Source: a virus
Virus record (IMG/VR): IMGVR_UViG_3300034283_001607
Coordinates: 1-25,334 of that record
Strand: one strand, 5' to 3'
DNA: 25,334 nucleotides
Below are positions 1,147 to 25,334 of the stretch, one piece after another. Made by a program: the position numbers and the translations under genes. Position 1 is the stretch's first letter. Every line of letters starts with the position of its first letter. Below the pieces are notes generated by a model, which searched no databases, was not told where the DNA came from, and was given only the letters and a program-made list of their open reading frames with translations.

Positions 1147-4100
1147 TTAGAATTCGCGGTTGTAGGTGAACATCACCTTTTCATCTGGGAGCATTCTGTC
1201 CCAAATCCTCTGATTATTCCCCATGCCTTCGCCGCCGATAAGGCTGCCCCGTGTTGCCCTCGGCATGCCGCGCTCATCAAGCCCCAGAGTCTGGGTGAGC
1301 ATGAAGGGCTGAGTGTCGTAGCTTATACCATAGCGGCCAGCAAGGCCGGGCAACCCTTCAAGCTGCGCCTGAATGCCGGCTAGGCTGGCGCCGCCGCCAA
1401 ACTTAGGCTTGCCCACTCGCATCACAGGCCCGCGAGGCCCGTACCCAAGATACCCCTCCGGGTTGACTTGCTGCCCATAACCGCCGCCACCAACCGCATC
1501 AACGCTGAGCGTTGCCGGGCCAATCGGCAAGCGCATTCCCGCGTGACCGCCGCCGCCAAGGCCATTGTTAGAGTCGGTCGGGGCAAGGCCAAGGTCTAGC
1601 TGAAATTCAGGCCGGCGCTGACGCTCTTGGCGAACCATTCGCCGAGTCTGTTGCGGTTCGCCAACCTCGGCGTACTGTCCGGGGTTGTCCGACAAGAAGT
1701 CGCTGATGATCGAGTTCAGTCGATTGCGGTCGCCATCGACTAGGCCGCCTTGGGCAAATTCCTCTGGGTCATCTAGCTCTATGTCTGGAGGATCATTTAC
1801 AAAATTCCCGCCTTCAAGGTTAAGGTTTTCAAGGTCAAGTTCGTTGACCTCAAATTCGTCAGTAAGCTCTTGAGCGCGGTTACTAAAATTATTTCCAAGC
1901 AGAGCGTTGTATTCGTCACTTGAAAGGCCGGAGTTTTCTTTGTCTCCAATTTCTGACCATCTGCCTCTTGATTGCAGAAAGTCTTTCACCATTGAATGGT
2001 ATTTTTGAGATATTGGGCCGTTGCTCCTTCCCTTGATTTGTTCAACGCTTTCAGGCGGGGGAGGAGGCAAGTCATAGAGTTTAGAAGCTTCGTTGTAAAG
2101 AGCCTGATGCCCCTTGTTAAACATGCCGGGAGTATTCGCCAAGACAGAGTCTGCCCCCATTATTTCTTCTTTGTTTGGAAGTGAATTCCAATATTCATTC
2201 CACTGCCTATTGCTTGGCGGCCTTGTTTCAATTGTCACATGGGGATTGCCCTCTTTGTCTCTCAACGAAAATATGCGAGAGCTGCCTTCGGCCACTTTGT
2301 CGCAATATCCGCCTACGCAGTGGGCCATGTAATCGCCTTCCCTACCAAGCGCTTTTTCAAGAAATTCTCTGCCCTGCATTTGATATTGGTCTTCGGCTAT
2401 TTCTGGGATCTTCAGTTCATTCCAAGCATGCCCGGTCGGGTATTCAGTCATACGATGGATTGCCGGATTTTTTTGAGCGTCAAGCATTTCTTGAAGTTTT
2501 TTTCTTCTGTCGAAAATCTGCAAATCTGCTGCTTTGTCAACAGCAGCGCCAACGCTTAAGTTGGGCAAATCTGAAAGCTTGGTTTTGAGGTTGTCAGGAA
2601 TGTCATCTCTGCCAATGGTCTCCAATAACAGATATTTCAATTTTGGAATGCGGTGAGCTTCTCCTGTTGTTATGTAATGAAAAGGTGTTTCTCCCTCCAA
2701 GTTATGAATCCAAGGATTTTCTTTAAGCGCACCATGAAAGTATTCCGGCTGTACAGTGTCCCAACCTCCAATCGGAATTCTGTAATTTCCCAGCCAACTA
2801 TCGGCAGTATCTTTTTCGCCAAATATATTTTTCTTTTTTCCTACGCCGATTGAGCTATCTGCAATGTCATCCCATTCTTTGCCCGCATCAGAAAGCCCAG
2901 TTGTCTCTTCTGGGAACCCAGCATGCCATCTGTTGACGTTTGCTTTTTCTTTTATGTCTTGCCGGCGCAGATCATTAAAGTATTCATTATTACGAAGCAA
3001 ATGGCTTGAGCCATACTCGCTTTTCAGCTCGTATTCTCTGATTGCATCTTCAGAAATTTGTTGACCGCGATTTTTGGCAGCTTGAATTGCATTCTCCCAA
3101 GTGCCCTCTGGCATGCCCGGTCTTGGGCCTTCGGCTTCTAGCTTTGCAGCATGATCAAAGTGAGTCTGAGCTTCGCGTAAAGCGGCATCGCGTTCTTTAT
3201 CAAAGCTTGCCATTCGTCGCTCAATCGTCGCCTTAATCGGGTCTCCTGCGGTGCCCATATCGCTTTGCATGTAACGAGCAAGCTGCTTTTGAAGCCAAAT
3301 GTTGACTTCTTTTTTAGCCCCCAAAGATTCTCCGTACTTATCAAGATAATTTAGCGCGTTCTCTTGAACCTCGGGGGTATATCCGTTGTCACGGGCTATA
3401 TTTATTTCTTCTAGTACAGACTCTGGATCTTCTGAAATGTAATTTCCAAACTTAAGTTTTCTGGCGGCGCTTCTTTTTGCTAGGCGGTCGTTGTATAGGC
3501 TTTCATCAAGAGGGTCATATATACCTTCCTTCATTTCTCTCCAAGGAAGCGGCGCATCCCTAAAGTCAGCACGCTCATATCCGTTACTCATAAGCAACTG
3601 CTCGGCAATTCTTCCCGGAATAGTGTGATCGTTAGTGCCGTTTGGCATATTTACGTCAAGAACCGGAGGCAACCAATTCCCGCCCTTCTGCTTGATGACC
3701 CCGAGGCCGCCTAAGAAAGGCGCTGAGGCTTTCACCGTACCGGCAATCTTGCCCAGTGCGCCGGTCGCGGTGGCCATTGGCAGCGCTCCCGCCATGTCGA
3801 GCGCTTCTGAATTGATCTGCCAGTCAAGCGGATTGCGCGAGCGGGTATTGGCCAGCACATAGGGCTCGCCTTCGGCCATGCGCCGGGCGGCCTCTGGCGC
3901 GTCGCCCATAATCATGTCGCGCAGAAATTTGCCTCGCGGGTTCTCCTTCGGGAACAGGCCATAGGCCGCGTCGAGGTAGGGGCTGACAAGGTCGCCGAAT
4001 TGCATGCTGAGCGTCGGTGGCAGACTGCTAGCGTAGCCGTCAGGGGTAACGCCGCCCATCTGCTCTTCGTCGCGTCTAGCGAGTTCCTCGTCGGTGTACA

Positions 4101-6012: not shown

Positions 6013-6493
6013 CAAGTCGCATTGCTGTCAGTGGGCGCGGCGCCTGTCGCAGGAGGCTCTTGAGCAGCGCAAGGCCTCCAAACCCTCCTGCCACTCGGCC
6101 CGTCTCATAGGCCAGCCCCTCGCCCTGTAGCCCAGTCCTGTCGGCAATGTAGTCGCTCCCCATGAAAGGCTTTTCAGAGTCGGGGCCGAGCATGTTCCGA
6201 ATAGCCCGAGCGTAGGGATTCCCGCCTTCCGGCGGCGACAGCGGAAGCATCGAGGCAATGTCGGCGGCGCCGCCGGCCCAATCAGCGCCGCTCCGCAGGA
6301 ACCCCTTGCCGAAATCTTTGGCGTTCTGCACTGGCCCTTGGCTGGCAGAGCGGGCCATTTCCATCATGGCCTCTGCCGCTAGCTGGTCGCGGTATCGCGC
6401 CACTATTGCTAAAAGCCCCGGATCTACCTCTGGCTTTGGCGCCTGCGGGAAATATCCCTCGGGCGGGTAGATGTATTCGTATTCGCCGCTCAT
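5999..6493 (-). CDS. Hypothetical protein, linker-like fragment of a polyvalent protein
   Basis: This 164-residue protein starts in an ATGA overlap with the end of the 935-aa gene (6490-6493) and so is probably translationally coupled to it. The middle part (DFGKGFLRSGADWAGGAADI, then GPDSEKPFMGSDYIADRTGL and a Gly-rich GRVAGGFGGLALL) resembles connector segments that I recall from inside long phage polyvalent proteins rather than an independent enzyme. The C-terminus turns basic and Pro-rich (RQAPRPLTAMRLVRAP), exactly where the gene overlaps the inverted cassette. That suggests the frame may have been cut short when the cassette arrived. No catalytic motif is visible. Confidence 0.7.
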   Translation of the reverse strand: MSGEYEYIYPPEGYFPQAPKPEVDPGLLAIVARYRDQLAAEAMMEMARSASQGPVQNAKDFGKGFLRSGADWAGGAADIASMLPLSPPEGGNPYARAIRNMLGPDSEKPFMGSDYIADRTGLQGEGLAYETGRVAGGFGGLALLKSLLRQAPRPLTAMRLVRAP

Positions 6494-9297
6494 TTGTATT
6501 TCTCTACCATGTTGATCAGGCGCTGGTTTAGCAAGGGCTCGACGACCTCGCGAGTCATAGCTGGGGCCATTCCGTTGCCGACGATGATTTTGGCTAGGCT
6601 GCGGTCATCAGGGAGAGGATAGCTGTCTGACAGGCCGAGCAAACGAGCGTAAGAGCGCGGATTAAGTGCTCGCACATCACCGCCGGGCAGCACCACTCGG
6701 TCGGTTTGCACCGGACTAGATAGCACCGTGATTCCGGGCTTGCCTGCGAACGCCAGTGGGATGTCCCCTTTGAAGCCAGAGCCGCCGCCGACTAGCAGAG
6801 GCGTGTCAAGACTTGCTGGATCAATGCCACGCTCAGCAAGCCGCCTGAGCTGCCACGGCGCAAGCTGGGAAGGCCGCATGCTCTCAAGCTGATCTTCAAT
6901 AGCAGGAAACCAGTCACCCGGTTTAGGCCAGTATTGTTGGGCCGGCGGCAAGTCTGCATCGAGCATTGCGCGAACCATCATTCTGTTTCGATTGCTCGGG
7001 GCGCCAAGGTCAGCGGCATTGTGGCGCACGATGTCCCAGTTATAACCCTGCTCGTTCAGTTCGTCGGCAATTCGCTGAAACGCTCCGCGCTTCTGGTAAG
7101 CCGGGACGTTCTCTAGCGTGAAAATTGGCGGTCGAATGTCCCTGATGGCGCGAGCGGTAGCATCGGCCGTCATAAGGTCGATGGGGTCTTCAGTTTTACA
7201 GTTGGCGCTGCTGTAGTTTTTGCAGCTCGGGCTGGCGTGCAACAGGTCTACCTTGCCGGCCATCGGCGAAAAATCAACGTCTTGCACATCAGCGTTGACT
7301 ATGTGCTTGCCAAACAAATTAGCGTAGTGCTGAGCAATCTCCGGATCTTTCTCGACCGCCATCACCGGCTTGGCCAGTCCTTCAAGGCCGTGCTCAAGCG
7401 TGCCGCCGCCGGAGAAAATCGACATCATGCGGGGCAGATATTTTTCGGCCAGCCCCACTAGCCCTCCCTTGGCCTTGCGGTCAACAATGTTGGTGATGCT
7501 CGGGTCGAAGATTACGAAGTTTCTGCTGCCTTCTCCGGCATTGCGAGAGTTTCCATCAAGGTACTTGATGCCGGGGATGCCCGCTTCCTGAAAATCTTGC
7601 CGAACTCTTTCGGCGGATTCCCTCCATCCGGGCTTATCAAAATGTTTAAGCGGCCCCCTTAAATAGTTATAAAAATCTTCCCCGGAATTAAGGACATTTG
7701 TTCTTCCGGCAGAAAGCCACTTGTCTAAATTTTTATCATAAGAAGCAAGCCCGGTAGACCCCATAAAGTCTTTTACGGCCTCAGACTGCACCCCAAGCGG
7801 CTTGTCCCAGTCCAGCATCTGAATCACTTTGTCTTCTGGCAGCTCGACGGTGTACAGCTTGCCCGTGGCGTTTACTGCATTCCTAAGCTCATCTGACGGG
7901 TCGTAATTGTGGAGGTCTCTGTAGGCCGCGCTAATTGCTTGCGAGGGATAATCAAAGCCTAGCCAGTCGTCAGCGTGCAGCGCCTTGATAAGGCCTTCCT
8001 GCGGCTCTGAGAAGTGCCCGGTGCCCAGCAAATCAAGCAGCTCATCGTGTTCAGCATCTTTCGGCAGAGCCTCAAGAAACTTTTCTCGCATTGCTTTGTG
8101 TGAAAGTTTTTTGGCGTACTGCTTAGCCACTTCCATATCCTCAGCAGTGTATGCGCCGTGACCATAGGCCTGCGATCCCTCCCCTGTTCCAATCTTTGAC
8201 AGGTCAAACTCTCCGAGCGGATTGCGCTCGGTCGGCGGGAAAACATGTGGCGAGCCGTGATAGACCTTGAGGTACTTTTTGACTAAATTCTCAAGGCCGC
8301 CGACAAGGCCGCCCCTCGCGTACTCCTCCGGCTCCTCGCTCTCTGGCTGATACAGCGCAGCACCGCCGGCCACTGGCGTCACCACTGCGGCGTGTCTAAG
8401 GGCGCGGATGAGATCGTTGTGCGTCGTCTGGTCGCCCTCAAGAGCGTCCCAGTTGCCATGATGCACAAGGTGCTGGTAGTACGGTTCAAGGTCGGGCTCT
8501 ATCCTGACATCCATCGCCCGCTGCCTGTCGCCCATGCGGTCAACCGCCTCATAGCCGCCGATGGGACGCCCCTGCCTAGAGCGAGACATGTACTTGCCGG
8601 CGTCCTCGCTCGACATCCCGATGTGGCCCTTGATTTCTCTAGCGTCGAACGTGCCGATGTCACCGCGCCCCAGCATGCTGGCCGGGAAGCCAGACTTGCC
8701 GCTTGAGACGCCCTTGATGCCCTCGGTGAAGCCGCGCCATTCGTCAATGGGGGCGAACAGCATCTCGTTCAGCTCATATCCCTTAGGGGCGAGGTTCTCG
8801 GCGGCATAGCGCAGGTCGTCGGCCAGCATGTTCTGCATGCCGAAGACCCGGAACTTGCGCCGGATGTCCTCAATCGAGTCGGTGTCTGCGACGCCCTGCT
8901 CGGCAAGGTCGAGGTACTTCTGCCCGGCCGGGCTCAGCAGCCAGCTAGAGAACGCGCCCTCGGGTCGAATCAGTCCCGGCTCGGGGTCGTAGATTTTGAG
9001 ACCTAAGCGCTCAACATCGTCGAGCTTGCGGCCGGTACGCATCACGCTGCTACGGGTGATTCCGTAGGCCTTGAGCAGGTCTCGCGGCCCCATCTCGCCG
9101 CGACGAGCCCGCTCGGCCTGCTCCTGCATGAAGCGGCCGAAGTTGTCCTGAATGTAGGCCGGCACCTCCTCGATGTAGCCGGTGTCCCGATGGAAATCAG
9201 ACAGCGGCCGCCACACCCAGTCGTCGATTTTAGTCGTCGGCGCGTCAACGTGCTCCGCAATCTTCTTCAGCCTGCCGAGCGCTGACTTGAGCCCCAT
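6490..9297 (-). CDS. Polyvalent fusion: N-terminal helical domain, ADP-ribosyltransferase-like domain, C5 cytosine-DNA methyltransferase (935 aa)
   Basis: Three modules are joined by YARGGLVGG (about 326-334) and KAKGGLVG (about 608-615) linkers. Residues 1-320 are a mostly helical domain with LLSPAGQKYLDLAEQG and SGFPASMLGRGDIGTFDARE. Residues about 343-606 look like a polyvalent-type ADP-ribosyltransferase: VYHGSP, then GTGEGSQAYGHGAYTAED, and near the end GIPGIKYLDG and NFVIFDPSITNIV. Residues about 624-922 carry the ordered C5 methyltransferase motifs: SIFSGGGTLEHGL (I, SAM binding), SPSC (IV, catalytic Cys692), LENV (VI), NAADLGAPSNRNR (VIII) and the IX/X region IIVGNGMAP. The methyltransferase part appears complete. 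The gene follows the 84-aa gene by one base and overlaps the 164-aa gene by ATGA. Its place among packaging genes, and the domain mix, suggest anti-defence or DNA-modifying roles; this is inference. Confidence 0.85.
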   Translation of the reverse strand: MGLKSALGRLKKIAEHVDAPTTKIDDWVWRPLSDFHRDTGYIEEVPAYIQDNFGRFMQEQAERARRGEMGPRDLLKAYGITRSSVMRTGRKLDDVERLGLKIYDPEPGLIRPEGAFSSWLLSPAGQKYLDLAEQGVADTDSIEDIRRKFRVFGMQNMLADDLRYAAENLAPKGYELNEMLFAPIDEWRGFTEGIKGVSSGKSGFPASMLGRGDIGTFDAREIKGHIGMSSEDAGKYMSRSRQGRPIGGYEAVDRMGDRQRAMDVRIEPDLEPYYQHLVHHGNWDALEGDQTTHNDLIRALRHAAVVTPVAGGAALYQPESEEPEEYARGGLVGGLENLVKKYLKVYHGSPHVFPPTERNPLGEFDLSKIGTGEGSQAYGHGAYTAEDMEVAKQYAKKLSHKAMREKFLEALPKDAEHDELLDLLGTGHFSEPQEGLIKALHADDWLGFDYPSQAISAAYRDLHNYDPSDELRNAVNATGKLYTVELPEDKVIQMLDWDKPLGVQSEAVKDFMGSTGLASYDKNLDKWLSAGRTNVLNSGEDFYNYLRGPLKHFDKPGWRESAERVRQDFQEAGIPGIKYLDGNSRNAGEGSRNFVIFDPSITNIVDRKAKGGLVGLAEKYLPRMMSIFSGGGTLEHGLEGLAKPVMAVEKDPEIAQHYANLFGKHIVNADVQDVDFSPMAGKVDLLHASPSCKNYSSANCKTEDPIDLMTADATARAIRDIRPPIFTLENVPAYQKRGAFQRIADELNEQGYNWDIVRHNAADLGAPSNRNRMMVRAMLDADLPPAQQYWPKPGDWFPAIEDQLESMRPSQLAPWQLRRLAERGIDPASLDTPLLVGGGSGFKGDIPLAFAGKPGITVLSSPVQTDRVVLPGGDVRALNPRSYARLLGLSDSYPLPDDRSLAKIIVGNGMAPAMTREVVEPLLNQRLINMVEKYK

Positions 9298-11496: not shown

Positions 11497-11739
11497 TCAA
11501 CAGCAATCTTTAACGCTAACTTTGAAACACTCCGGTGCCAAATAGTGGCACTCACATTCCCCGCTCTTCGTTTCGTGTGGCCACAGCGTAACCCATCCGT
11601 CTCCGAGCCGCTCGTAACTGTCTGCGGCCAGCGCGGCCTGAGCCGCCACCATAACCATCGTCATTTCGCTTGCGCCTTTCCGGTAAGCCCTGAGGATGTC
11701 CAGCAGCTCACCCAGCCCCCTGCGATTCATCGTGACCAT
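11497..11739 (-). CDS. Hypothetical protein upstream of terS
   Basis: An 80-residue protein of unknown function. The first part is helical (RRGLGELLDILRAYRKG, then an Ala-rich AAQAALAADSYERLG). The second part is Cys-rich (GECECHYLAPECFKVSVKDCC), with six cysteines in the last 25 residues, which could bind metal, though no standard finger spacing is present. The start at 11739 overlaps the stop of the preceding gene in TGATG fashion. A second in-frame Met three codons later is an alternative start. It appears to be the second gene of the operon that leads into terS. Confidence 0.65.
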   Translation of the reverse strand: MVTMNRRGLGELLDILRAYRKGASEMTMVMVAAQAALAADSYERLGDGWVTLWPHETKSGECECHYLAPECFKVSVKDCC

Positions 11740-12194
11740 CAGTTAACGCTTGCGTCAATGGAAAGGTTGACGTTTGCGTTAAGGTTAGGTCGGTAAATCG
11801 TGCTCTCCCACCGCGTCACCACATCCATGTGATTGTGGCGCTGCTGCGGCGTCACTCGACATATCGGCTTGATCCAGCCGATATGCTTCAGAGCCCCGAC
11901 CCCGGACACCCAGACATTGTGGTGCAGCCGAATATCCCGCAGCAGCCCGTGCTGCGAACAGTAACTGCGGAACCTGTCTCCCTCCACAAACCGCTGGCGC
12001 ACCAGCAGCCCGGCGCATAGCGTCAGATACCGTTCAACAAACTCGGGGGCAACCCTGTACGCCCGACCCCAGCACTGAGCGGCCAGCCGGAAGGCTTCCC
12101 GCATCCTGTCCTGCTCGGGGCGCGGCGCTTGCCCATGCGCCCAGCCAAGGCCCGCAACGTCATCATCATCAAACAAACTCGCTTGCTGAAACAT
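11739..12194 (-). CDS. Hypothetical phage protein, first gene of the packaging block
   Basis: A 151-residue protein of unknown function. It is basic and aromatic in the middle (LCAGLLVRQRFVEGDRFRSY, HHNVWVSGVGALKHIGWIKP) and contains RHNHMDVVTRWESTIYR. I recall similar endings in small replication- or packaging-region proteins of other phages but cannot assign a role. A strong GGGAGGAG ribosome site lies about seven bases before the ATG at 12194, which fits the first gene of a transcript. It is followed by a TGATG overlap with the next gene. The GTAC-rich non-coding region lies immediately upstream, so its expression may be controlled from there. Confidence 0.7.
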   Translation of the reverse strand: MFQQASLFDDDDVAGLGWAHGQAPRPEQDRMREAFRLAAQCWGRAYRVAPEFVERYLTLCAGLLVRQRFVEGDRFRSYCSQHGLLRDIRLHHNVWVSGVGALKHIGWIKPICRVTPQQRHNHMDVVTRWESTIYRPNLNANVNLSIDASVN

Positions 12195-12254: not shown

Positions 12255-12414
12255 GTACCCAGCGTACCTTTTTGTACCCCCCCTATAGGGGGTGGGTACG
12301 TTTAGGTACGGCTAGGGCACTTTTTGCCCTCCGGTACCCAAATTGGAAAAGTACCGGCAGGTACGTTTAGGTACGCGTACTCAAACGTACTTAGTACCGG
12401 GACGTACCGGGTAC
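12255..12414. repeat. Fourteen phased GTAC tetramers
   Basis: GTAC starts at 12255, 12264, 12274, 12296, 12306, 12334, 12351, 12361, 12371, 12377, 12387, 12394, 12404 and 12411. Steps of 10 occur six times and steps of 17 link several others (for example 12377-12394-12411). The longer unit GTACGTTTAGGTACG occurs twice, at 12296 and 12361, and flanking bases are often G before and C or G after. About 0.6 would be expected by chance in 160 bases. Because GTAC is its own complement, the array reads the same on both strands. The last copy touches the primase stop codon. Confidence 0.85.
12314..12330. repeat. Small hairpin inside the GTAC array
   Basis: AGGGCA-CTTTT-TGCCCT is a perfect six-base-pair stem with a five-base loop. 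It fills the largest gap between GTAC copies (12306 to 12334). No U-tract follows on either strand, so it is not a typical intrinsic terminator. Confidence 0.5.
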
Positions 12415-14439
12415 CTAGCGCTCATTTTTGCGAATCATCAGGGCGCCGGCATGCACTGCATCGACCATCGTCCAGCCGCCCTCCTGCGCCTCGATGATGT
12501 TGGCCTCCAGCAGGTCGGCGATGAATTTGCCGGTCGCGCTGGCCTTCAAAGTCTGCTTGGCGTAGGCCTCGGTGAAGTCTTTTTGCTGAACCAGATAGGT
12601 CATCATCGTTTCACGGGAAACGTATGGCGCCCCTCGTAGCTCGTCAGCTCCGGTGCCCCACCATGCGTTCTCCCAGAATTTCCGGTGCTGCGCGAGCTTG
12701 CTTTCCTTCTTGCTGGTGGCCGCCGAAGGCTTAGCATTAGCGTCAATAACAAGCACGGCGCTGCTCACCGGCTCGCCATCCTCGTCCACCCAGCCCGGAA
12801 TCTCGACCGACTCCAGCCGAGCGCAGAGCGGTTCCGCAAGCTCGGCGTCCTTGCTTTTGCGCTGGATGATTTGCAATGGCTCGCCGTCCTTGCCGGGCAC
12901 GATGGAGACCTCAATATCGAGCGCTCCCCGCCACGCACTGGAGCCTCTAGCACGGTGCTGGGCTTCCTCCGACACGCCAGTGTGGTGAACCAGCAGCACG
13001 CTGCATTTGAACTCCCTCATCAGGGCGTTGCAGGCGTCTAACATCGTCTTGGTATCCTGTGCGGAATTCTCGTCGCCGGACAAGAATCTGTGCAGAGTAT
13101 CCACAACTATTAAACAGGGTTCTAAGCCCAGCGCCCGGATTTGCTCGACCACTTTGCGGTATCCCTCGGGCGTGTTGAGGTCGCAGCCATCGCGGCTCAG
13201 CCACATGTTGAGCTTGTCGATTTTGTGGCAATGCTTCCACGCTGCCACGCGAGCCCGCAGACCATGATGGCCCTCGCCAGCCAGATAGATAACCGTCCCG
13301 CTCTTGACCGCCTTACCAGCCCATTCTTCGATGGCGCTACTGATTCGCAGGCACCAGTCCAGCACCACAAAGGTCTTGCCACCGCCTGACGGGCCGTGAA
13401 CCATAATCAGAGCCTGCGACTGCACCCAGTGCTTGATGAGCCAAGCCAGCGGCGCTGGCTGGGCGCTGAAGTCATCGGCCGGAATGAGCCAGTCATGCGC
13501 TGGTGGCGCCAGCAGAAGCGCGAGGTCGTGGCCCGACTGGACGAAATCGTTGGCGTCGCCGGGAATTGGCGGGACGACCATGCGGGCGCCCCACTTGGCG
13601 CAGGCCTGCTCGGCGTAGCGCTGGCCGACACCGCTGGCGTCATTGTCAGCGACGATGACGATGGGCTGCGTGCTGCCAAGCTCTCGGATAGAGCCAGTGA
13701 CCGGCACCAGATTGCTGGCGCTGTAAGCAATAGCGCAGGGGCGACCAGTCGTCTCATGAATTGTCGCCGCTGTAGCAAAGCCCTCGGCAACATAAATGAC
13801 TCCGGGCTCGTCCATCGTGCCGAGCATCCAGAATTTGCCACCAGTCTGGGCGCCGGGGTGATACAGCTTGCCGCCCTCCTTGTCGATGTACTGGAGGCTG
13901 CTGAGCGAGCCATCCGCGCCATACAGGGGCACCATCAGGCGGCCGTCTCCGGTGACTCGGGCGCCGTGCGGCTGGATGCCTTTGCGCTTGAGGTATTCGT
14001 GCTCGGCGCTTGCCGGCCCCGCGACCGACCAGATTTTCTCGACCGTATCCGCAGCTACCGCCCTCTGCTTGGCCAGCTCCTCATCGCGGATTGCCTTGGC
14101 CTCGGCCAGTCGCCGGGCGTTGGCCATTTCTTCGGCTGCGCTGATTGGTCGCCCGACATCAGCTCTGAAGGTGACCTCAACCCCTGCCCGCCAGCAGCCG
14201 AAGCGCCCTGCAGGGATGCCGTCGGGATAGATGATGTACCAGCCAGACTTGTCGCCGGCCTTGCCTGACCCCTTAGTGCCAGAGCGGAATCGGTGGATTT
14301 TACCGTCAAGCTGGAGGTGGTCGGGAGGCTCAAGCCCCGCCGCGACCATCGCGTCTTTTAGCTGTATTTCAGGCGGGTCGGGCCTGAAAGTTTCCTGCGG
14401 CAGCACTGGGCCGCCAAAGATTTTAGTGAGGTCTGCCAT
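12415..14439 (-). CDS. DNA primase-helicase (Toprim plus RecA-fold ATPase)
   Basis: A 674-residue replication protein. The N-terminal half has a primase-like region with SGWYIIYPDGIPAGRFGCWR, then a Toprim fold: YVAEGFATAATIH with Glu219 and IVIVADNDASG with Asp265/Asp267. The C-terminal half is a RepA/AAA_25-type RecA-fold helicase: Walker A HGPSGGGKT (349-356), YLAGEGHHGL, Walker B LIVVDTLHRF (443 on) and VLLVHHTG (sensor-like histidines 485-486). No N-terminal zinc finger is visible, so primer synthesis is less certain than helicase activity. The start at 14439 has a modest GCGAGACCAACA leader. It is transcribed away from the recombination block, from a divergent promoter region. The gene ends in TAG directly against the GTAC array. 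Confidence 0.9.
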   Translation of the reverse strand: MADLTKIFGGPVLPQETFRPDPPEIQLKDAMVAAGLEPPDHLQLDGKIHRFRSGTKGSGKAGDKSGWYIIYPDGIPAGRFGCWRAGVEVTFRADVGRPISAAEEMANARRLAEAKAIRDEELAKQRAVAADTVEKIWSVAGPASAEHEYLKRKGIQPHGARVTGDGRLMVPLYGADGSLSSLQYIDKEGGKLYHPGAQTGGKFWMLGTMDEPGVIYVAEGFATAATIHETTGRPCAIAYSASNLVPVTGSIRELGSTQPIVIVADNDASGVGQRYAEQACAKWGARMVVPPIPGDANDFVQSGHDLALLLAPPAHDWLIPADDFSAQPAPLAWLIKHWVQSQALIMVHGPSGGGKTFVVLDWCLRISSAIEEWAGKAVKSGTVIYLAGEGHHGLRARVAAWKHCHKIDKLNMWLSRDGCDLNTPEGYRKVVEQIRALGLEPCLIVVDTLHRFLSGDENSAQDTKTMLDACNALMREFKCSVLLVHHTGVSEEAQHRARGSSAWRGALDIEVSIVPGKDGEPLQIIQRKSKDAELAEPLCARLESVEIPGWVDEDGEPVSSAVLVIDANAKPSAATSKKESKLAQHRKFWENAWWGTGADELRGAPYVSRETMMTYLVQQKDFTEAYAKQTLKASATGKFIADLLEANIIEAQEGGWTMVDAVHAGALMIRKNER

Positions 14440-23277: not shown

Positions 23278-23281
<4 letters not shown>
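23084..23281 (-). CDS. Small hypothetical protein
   Basis: A 65-residue protein of unknown function (YFPTLNAALSAEGLLDAWDC, then WCWYDGSRHGRQVSVYRDET). It has a beta-rich, aromatic second half with several Trp and Tyr, and no known motif. It sits between two genes with ATGA overlaps at both ends, which supports its being translated as part of the run. Confidence 0.7.
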
Positions 23282-23535
<254 letters not shown>

Positions 23536-24885: not shown

Positions 24886-25334
24886 GTGAATGAGCTGGCT
24901 TTATTCGCAGGCGCTGGTGGAGGAATACTCGGCGGCAAACTGCTCGGATGGCGAACCGTCTGCGCCGTTGAGTGGGAACCCTACGCAGCTTGCGTACTTG
25001 CCGCCCGACAAAATGACGGCATTCTCCCGGCTTTCCCGATTTGGGATGACGTTCAAACCTTTGACGGCAGACCGTGGCGAGGCATTGTTGACGTTGTATC
25101 TGGCGGATTTCCGTGCCAAGACATTAGCAGCGCAGGAAAAGGGGCTGGAATTGATGGGGAGCGCTCAGGGATGTGGCGAGAAATGGCGCGGATCATCGGC
25201 GAGGTACGACCCAGATTCGCGTTCGTGGAAAACTCACCAGTACTCACTTCTCGGGGGCTTGACAGAGTTCTCGGAGACTTGGCCGAGATGGGGTTTGATG
25301 CGAAATGGGGAGTTGTTTCCGCAGCAGACGTTGG
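24886..25334 (+). CDS. Stand-alone C5 cytosine-DNA methyltransferase (partial, cut by window end)
   Basis: The first 149 codons of a Dcm-type methyltransferase. Motif I is LALFAGAGGGILGGKLLGW (residues 4-22), motif II holds VEWEPYAACV, motif IV is GGFPCQDISSAGKGAGI with the catalytic Cys in PCQ, and motif VI is FVENSPVL. The start of motif VIII (SAADVG) is reached at the edge. The start is GTG at 24886, set by a near-perfect AAGGAGG five bases upstream; the ATG four bases on is in another frame. The enzyme would methylate cytosines at a defined short site, probably to protect phage DNA from restriction. Unlike the fused methyltransferase at 6490-9297 it keeps the canonical PCQ. Confidence 0.93.
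   Translation, partial: MNELALFAGAGGGILGGKLLGWRTVCAVEWEPYAACVLAARQNDGILPAFPIWDDVQTFDGRPWRGIVDVVSGGFPCQDISSAGKGAGIDGERSGMWREMARIIGEVRPRFAFVENSPVLTSRGLDRVLGDLAEMGFDAKWGVVSAADV

Follow-up and report, generated by a model that had tools for sequence, protein, structure and literature searches.

A GTAC repeat array beside a phage primase–helicase gene is probably an iteron-type replication origin that is exchanged together with the enzyme's C-terminal head

The window analysed here is a stretch of 25,334 nt from a viral sequence record (IMGVR_UViG_3300034283_001607), in which a cluster of GTAC tetramers lies in the non-coding stretch that separates the stop codon of a primase–helicase gene (minus strand) from a gene for a 151-aa protein (Table 1). 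In the primase–helicase, Pfam recognizes AAA_25 and Toprim_3 only, and the solved relative of the helicase is RepA of RSF1010 (1g8y, E 1.3e-12). Terminase genes lie about 0.7 kb beyond the array, with the large terminase gene adjoining the primase–helicase/array module, and sequences that read in translation like C5-methyltransferases are encoded at 6490–9297 (C-terminal part) and 24886–25332; the first is the C-terminal part of a 935-aa protein (minus strand), which looks like a long polyvalent protein carrying a fused C5 DNA methyltransferase. Elsewhere in the window, an 85-aa ORF (23278–23535, minus strand) has a long Asp/Glu run at its end.

Table 1. Features of the primase–helicase/array region, in window coordinates
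Feature	Coordinates	Strand	Description
Primase–helicase gene, 674 aa	12415..14439	-	Toprim_3 (residues 215–302), AAA_25/RepA-like RecA-fold helicase (320–490)
C-terminal head, residues 565–674	12418..12747	-	Predicted winged-helix-like domain, proposed iteron reader
Codons 619–637	12529..12585	-	HTH helix (624–631) and following turn; residues 622, 626, 629 and 632 track the iteron word
Iteron array of the putative origin	12255..12414	-	14 GTAC cores; iterons GGTAC(G) in either orientation; replaced by other words in relatives
A+T-rich stretch inside the array	12340..12351	.	Candidate unwinding site, from sequence; placement relative to iterons no better than random over the family
GGGCAAAAAGTGCCC box, lying between the array's two parts	12315..12329	-	GGCRA in 66/76 nonredundant origins; short motif, raw count
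Hairpin/inverted repeat, iteron-flanked	12274..12299	.	GTACCCCCCC-TATA-GGGGG-T-GGGTAC; exact arms 12279–12283/12288–12292; centre CTATAG 12283–12288
Neighbouring 151-aa gene, downstream of the array	11739..12194	-	Not part of the module; another gene takes its place in L002

The observation behind the original prediction holds. The array contains 14 copies of GTAC where chance would give about 0.2–0.6 per 160 nt, successive copies are 9, 10, 22, 10, 28, 17, 10, 10, 6, 10, 7, 10 and 7 nt apart (six steps of exactly 10), and GTACGTTTAGGTACG is present twice, at 12296 and 12361. That GTAC occurs at ordinary density elsewhere is roughly true, but the 50 copies outside the array are still about 1.6 times the shuffle expectation (64 in the whole window vs 31.1 ± 4.6 in dinucleotide shuffles). 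Similarly, the helical phase ascribed to the sites exists between neighbours but not over all 14 of them, which show no significant phase coherence (R=0.33, p~0.2); the distance between neighbours in relatives is most often 10 nt, within a broad range of 5–12. We further argue against self-complementary GTAC as the unit. The repeat is probably the asymmetric GGTAC(G), present in 12–14 copies in both orientations, and the words of relatives are mostly non-palindromic. When the window was compared with L002 and L003, which share the word GGTAC and whose proteins are 94–95% identical, changes were too few to show selective conservation of GTAC over spacers, and an Rfam search gave only a chance-level miRNA match.

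Relatives of the locus comprised 80 viral contigs with the primase–helicase (fetched with the window protein), about 145 further loci (queries L050 and L067), four annotated cultured phages and 78 loci from bacterial genome assemblies. In most of about 200 relatives, down to about 33% protein identity, a dense array lies directly 3′ of the primase stop codon; this is the arrangement in the cultured phages CGphi29, 1N2-2, XX1924 and PB15, and relatives at 33–45% protein identity, very distant prophage and MAG ones included, have further words at the same place. The words themselves are exchanged (GGTAAC, GGGAAC/CGGAAC, AGGGTCA, AGGGTGA, AGGGTAC, AGGGGCA, GGGACA, GGTTCA, GGTACA, GAGTGA, GTGTCA, GTAAG, GGTAG and others), giving about 25 classes in all, a number that is soft because words were assigned from k-mer enrichment. 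The lack of conservation in relatives with the same flanking genes that would have told against the original prediction applies to the letters GTAC and not to the array, whose architecture is kept. The shared anatomy consists of 4–17 iterons within about 200 nt (a mean of 7.7 exact copies per nonredundant relative, and 14 in the window) together with a covarying hairpin centred on CTWWAG. Genes beyond the array vary while the array stays with the primase–helicase gene; the 151-aa gene has only four relatives in the viral collection, and in L002 the array is as in the window without that gene adjoining it. One clade (L036, L038–L045, L226, L231) has the same enzyme and no recognizable array beside the gene, nor was one found in the L036–L045 contigs. 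An AGGGTAC array forecast for L074 from its KNDLNPS head failed to appear beside the gene; at 1977–2450 this locus has dense CTTGA/TCAAG repeats upstream of the primase gene instead of a downstream array. In the records of the four cultured phages the region carries a 'DNA primase' (or similar) label and then intergenic DNA with no annotation, so these origins appear to be unannotated there, and the open-access literature, to which our search was confined (subscription papers lay outside it), yielded no description of this origin family.

Features typed as origin marks accompany the arrays. The 260 nt that follow the stop codon contain 3.75 exact DnaA boxes (TTATCCACA) per kb vs 0.062 per kb elsewhere in the same loci, a 60-fold enrichment. 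Boxes are found within those 260 nt in 41 of 94 nonredundant loci, and in several GGGAAC phages they bracket the array, at +10/+22 and about +200; near the window array there is none. Moreover, 47 of 76 nonredundant origins have a covarying stem around CTWWAG, in which pairs 1 to 6 are complementary in 46, 47, 45, 44, 41 and 36 of the 47 loci, with two to four Watson–Crick pair types each; as a control, 6/10 flanking pairs were present at only one of the 29 CTWWAG motifs that lie within the gene. The DnaA boxes, and the constancy with which the array stays with the primase–helicase, strongly support an origin among the functions that had been put forward for the cluster. The cumulative GC skew suggested as a further sign shows no turn at the array in the window. 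The PICI-like rule that iterons flank an AT-rich region held no more often than with random placement (50/71 vs 54 ± 3). In L027 (8655–8945), and at similar offsets in L028 and L029, a second non-coding region lies 650–940 nt after the primase gene and carries several DnaA boxes and no iterons.

The part of the enzyme encoded next to the array, its C-terminal head, is also its least conserved part (pairwise identity 0.36–0.44 over the last ~100 residues vs 0.52–0.79). AlphaFold2 with 63 relatives predicts for it the order helix–strand–helix–helix–helix–strand–strand–helix, which is winged-helix-like (pLDDT 85.5, pTM 0.73). By sequence no solved structure matches the head, and fold matches in the PDB are weak and of the CRP-family HTH type (best E 0.13). 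A similar head (BFVD A0A6J5RWR5; TM 0.86 by query length, 37% identity) is modelled on a 629-aa phage protein annotated Prim_Pol, and heads of this kind may thus also be carried by AEP-type primases.

In particular, the head varies with the word. Among 99 nonredundant proteins, differences within 13-residue windows were compared with differences in word after removal of core distance, and the partial correlation reached 0.559 at residues 619–631 and 625–637, a figure from related sequences that is not a formal phylogenetic test and with which two matched comparisons agree; all windows before residue 575 gave a mean r of −0.002 (sd 0.045, max 0.132). At equal core identity (0.939), median head identity is 1.00 in same-word pairs vs 0.66 in different-word pairs (p=5e-9, the pairs being non-independent). 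In 33 cases the nearest neighbours by core and by head point to different words; the head neighbour then gave the correct one 21 times and the core neighbour once. Residue 629 is Gln at 20/20 GGTAAC, 4/4 CGTAAC and 3/3 GGTAG loci, Val at 15/15 GGAAC loci, and Asn at 17/17 GGGTCA and 7/7 GGGGCA loci; Lys, Asn and Glu/Asp at residue 632 go mostly with A, T and G, respectively, at word position 4. Most information on word positions 5–6 comes from residues 622 and 626, that on position 3 from 629 and that on position 4 from 632. Residues 622, 626 and 629 are spaced i, i+4, i+7 and would form one face of the predicted helix 624–631 with its N-cap. Since five of the 5-residue head signatures each occur with two words, other residues must matter too and the list is incomplete. 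These covariations suggest that the last ~100 residues of the primase–helicase are probably the iteron reader.

Comparison of close relatives points to the unit in which specificity changes. L069 and L071 have cores that are 99% identical, heads that are 33% identical and different words, and sister phages with 94–99% identical cores and different words differ in the HTH region, where, for example, residue 629 is without exception Gln in the GGTAAC phage and Val in the GGGAAC phage. Between L033 and L096, DNA identity falls to 0.37–0.62 between positions −180 and +240 relative to the stop codon and returns to 0.80–0.97; between L172 and L173 it also drops around the stop codon and recovers downstream. 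The finest contrast is that of L105 and L107, in which the DNA is ~93% identical over most of 20 kb and the primases differ at 13 of 673 residues, three of these in the head (Q628V, S634A, P635T). At corresponding positions the iterons read GGTAAC in L105 and GGGAAC in L107, between DnaA boxes that both phages keep. L102 and L104 differ in the head by this same trio of substitutions (Gln to Val, Ser to Ala, Pro to Thr), and so do L093 and L094; we do not count the three pairs as independent, because they may represent one allele pair moving between backbones. L014 has two successive arrays at 3596–4000, GGTAAC and then GGGACA, each with its own hairpin, and before the second comes an 11-residue stretch that weakly (E 0.03) resembles the last codons of another primase allele, so that the second array is apparently the scar of an earlier exchange. 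On the strength of such comparisons we hold that head and origin are exchanged together as one cassette, and have been many times among these relatives. Since the head codons abut the array, one recombination event can replace both and would switch origin specificity in a single step.

Considering these findings together, we regard it as very likely that the phage starts its replication at the GTAC cluster, an iteron array 3′ of the primase–helicase gene that would be read by the winged-helix head, which in turn would load the helicase. The cluster could be an origin whose iterons are read by another protein (the small Cro-like regulator encoded upstream of the primase in some relatives, DnaA alone or a protein not seen here), with the head tracking the word by physical linkage only. 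Recombination would indeed move head codons and adjoining array together, and regulators are encoded beside the gene in CGphi29, 1N2-2, XX1924 and PB15. However, linkage predicts a correlation that rises towards the gene end, whereas that observed peaks at 619–637 (r 0.56) and drops to 0.13–0.16 at 643–661, nearer the array, which argues against plain DNA linkage; in addition, remote backbones with the same word have Q629/K632 in common, and upstream of the window primase no ORF looked Cro-like. We therefore think another reader unlikely, and neither the 151-aa protein nor TerS, both named earlier as candidates for this role, finds support.

The phased repeats do occupy an intergenic gap upstream of the 151-aa gene, as would a multi-copy operator for that gene or for the primase operon, yet the downstream genes differ among relatives while the array keeps its place with the primase, and DnaA boxes lie beside it in relatives. 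Moreover, the sole promoter-like site in the window array region is on the other strand, a scan of that region found no intrinsic terminator for the primase gene, and the arrays that were read have no T-run after the stem; an operator is accordingly quite improbable. A methylation-controlled switch at palindromic GTAC would suit the C5-methyltransferase-like sequences encoded in the window, but GTAC methylation is not a general function of the site because relatives use non-palindromic words there, and we give this proposal very little credence. Least credible of all is a packaging (pac/TerS) recognition region: despite the nearby terminase genes of the window, the arrays of 1N2-2 and XX1924/PB15 follow the primase with no terS adjoining, and the word goes with the primase head rather than with a TerS.

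Read as an origin with its own reader, the replicon of head and array resembles, by analogy, the SaPI/PICI initiators and the swapped RepA_N/ori modules of PLE in its way of working, here on a RecA-fold helicase in tailed phages. In SaPI/PICI initiators the C-terminal domain recognizes iterons directly 3′ of rep (PMC7581432, PMC6092414); an array directly 3′ of the initiator–helicase gene and allele-specific iterons are common to both, and recognition by a C-terminal domain would be so too, as the tracking of head and word suggests. The SaPI/PICI proteins are of D5_N/SF3 or DUF927 type (PMC6092414, PMC7581432) and are carried by satellites, which lack a full set of virion genes of their own, whereas here a RecA-fold AAA_25 (RepA-like) helicase is combined with TOPRIM in tailed phages (the window has a large terminase gene, and CGphi29 and 1N2-2 are isolated phages), and DnaA boxes and the CTWWAG hairpin are added. 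Vibrio PLE RepA/ori and ICP1 Odn are alike in that their DNA-binding domain and ori also vary together and have repeatedly been swapped as a pair; in PLE, however, RepA_N is N-terminal, the iterons are three semi-palindromes of ~30 bp and two module types are described (PMC8263062), in contrast to the 5–7-nt words, about 25 types and C-terminal head of this family. With RSF1010 the likeness extends from the RepA-like hexameric helicase to iterons and to hairpins at the origin (ssi priming sites in RSF1010). There RepA, the primase RepB′ and the iteron-binding RepC are separate, whereas here primase, helicase and proposed iteron reader are one polypeptide. The α protein of P4 (ori1–crr) joins a TOPRIM primase, a helicase and a C-terminal origin-binding domain in one protein and has short iterons, a plan that the present enzyme, with its proposed origin-binding head, would share. 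It differs in the helicase (SF3 in P4, AAA_25 here), in a head without sequence match to solved structures and in an array directly 3′ of the gene. The P4 α layout is in part documented together with that of pRN1 ORF904 (PMC4234260), whose origin likewise lies directly downstream of a primase–helicase with a C-terminal winged helix (predicted in our case) and whose hairpin is kept in structure and poorly in sequence; pRN1 has an AEP primase, an SF3 helicase and no iterons (PMC4234260).

We suggest that the winged-helix head of the primase–helicase binds GGTAC/GGTACG at many sites of the array and that this binding would load the RepA-like helicase ring there, with DnaA perhaps helping where relatives have boxes for it. 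The duplex would then open and the origin fire, the TOPRIM domain priming, possibly at the conserved hairpin. On a wider scale, we lean towards the view that this is a widespread tailed-phage family in which origin specificity resides in an exchangeable 'head plus origin' cassette at the 3′ end of the gene for a single-polypeptide TOPRIM/RepA-type initiator and has radiated into 25 or more words through one helix face (residues 622, 626, 629 and 632). The pairs would then constitute a natural recognition code and would define replication-compatibility types among otherwise near-identical phages; the pressure behind this may come, as for PLE, from nucleases directed at the origin or from satellites. 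The layout is similar to that of known replicons and is found here in tailed phages with an unrelated helicase. The dozens of natural word/head pairs, several of them a handful of residues apart, allow one to ask directly how a winged-helix protein acquires a new DNA target and why phages switch their type of origin.
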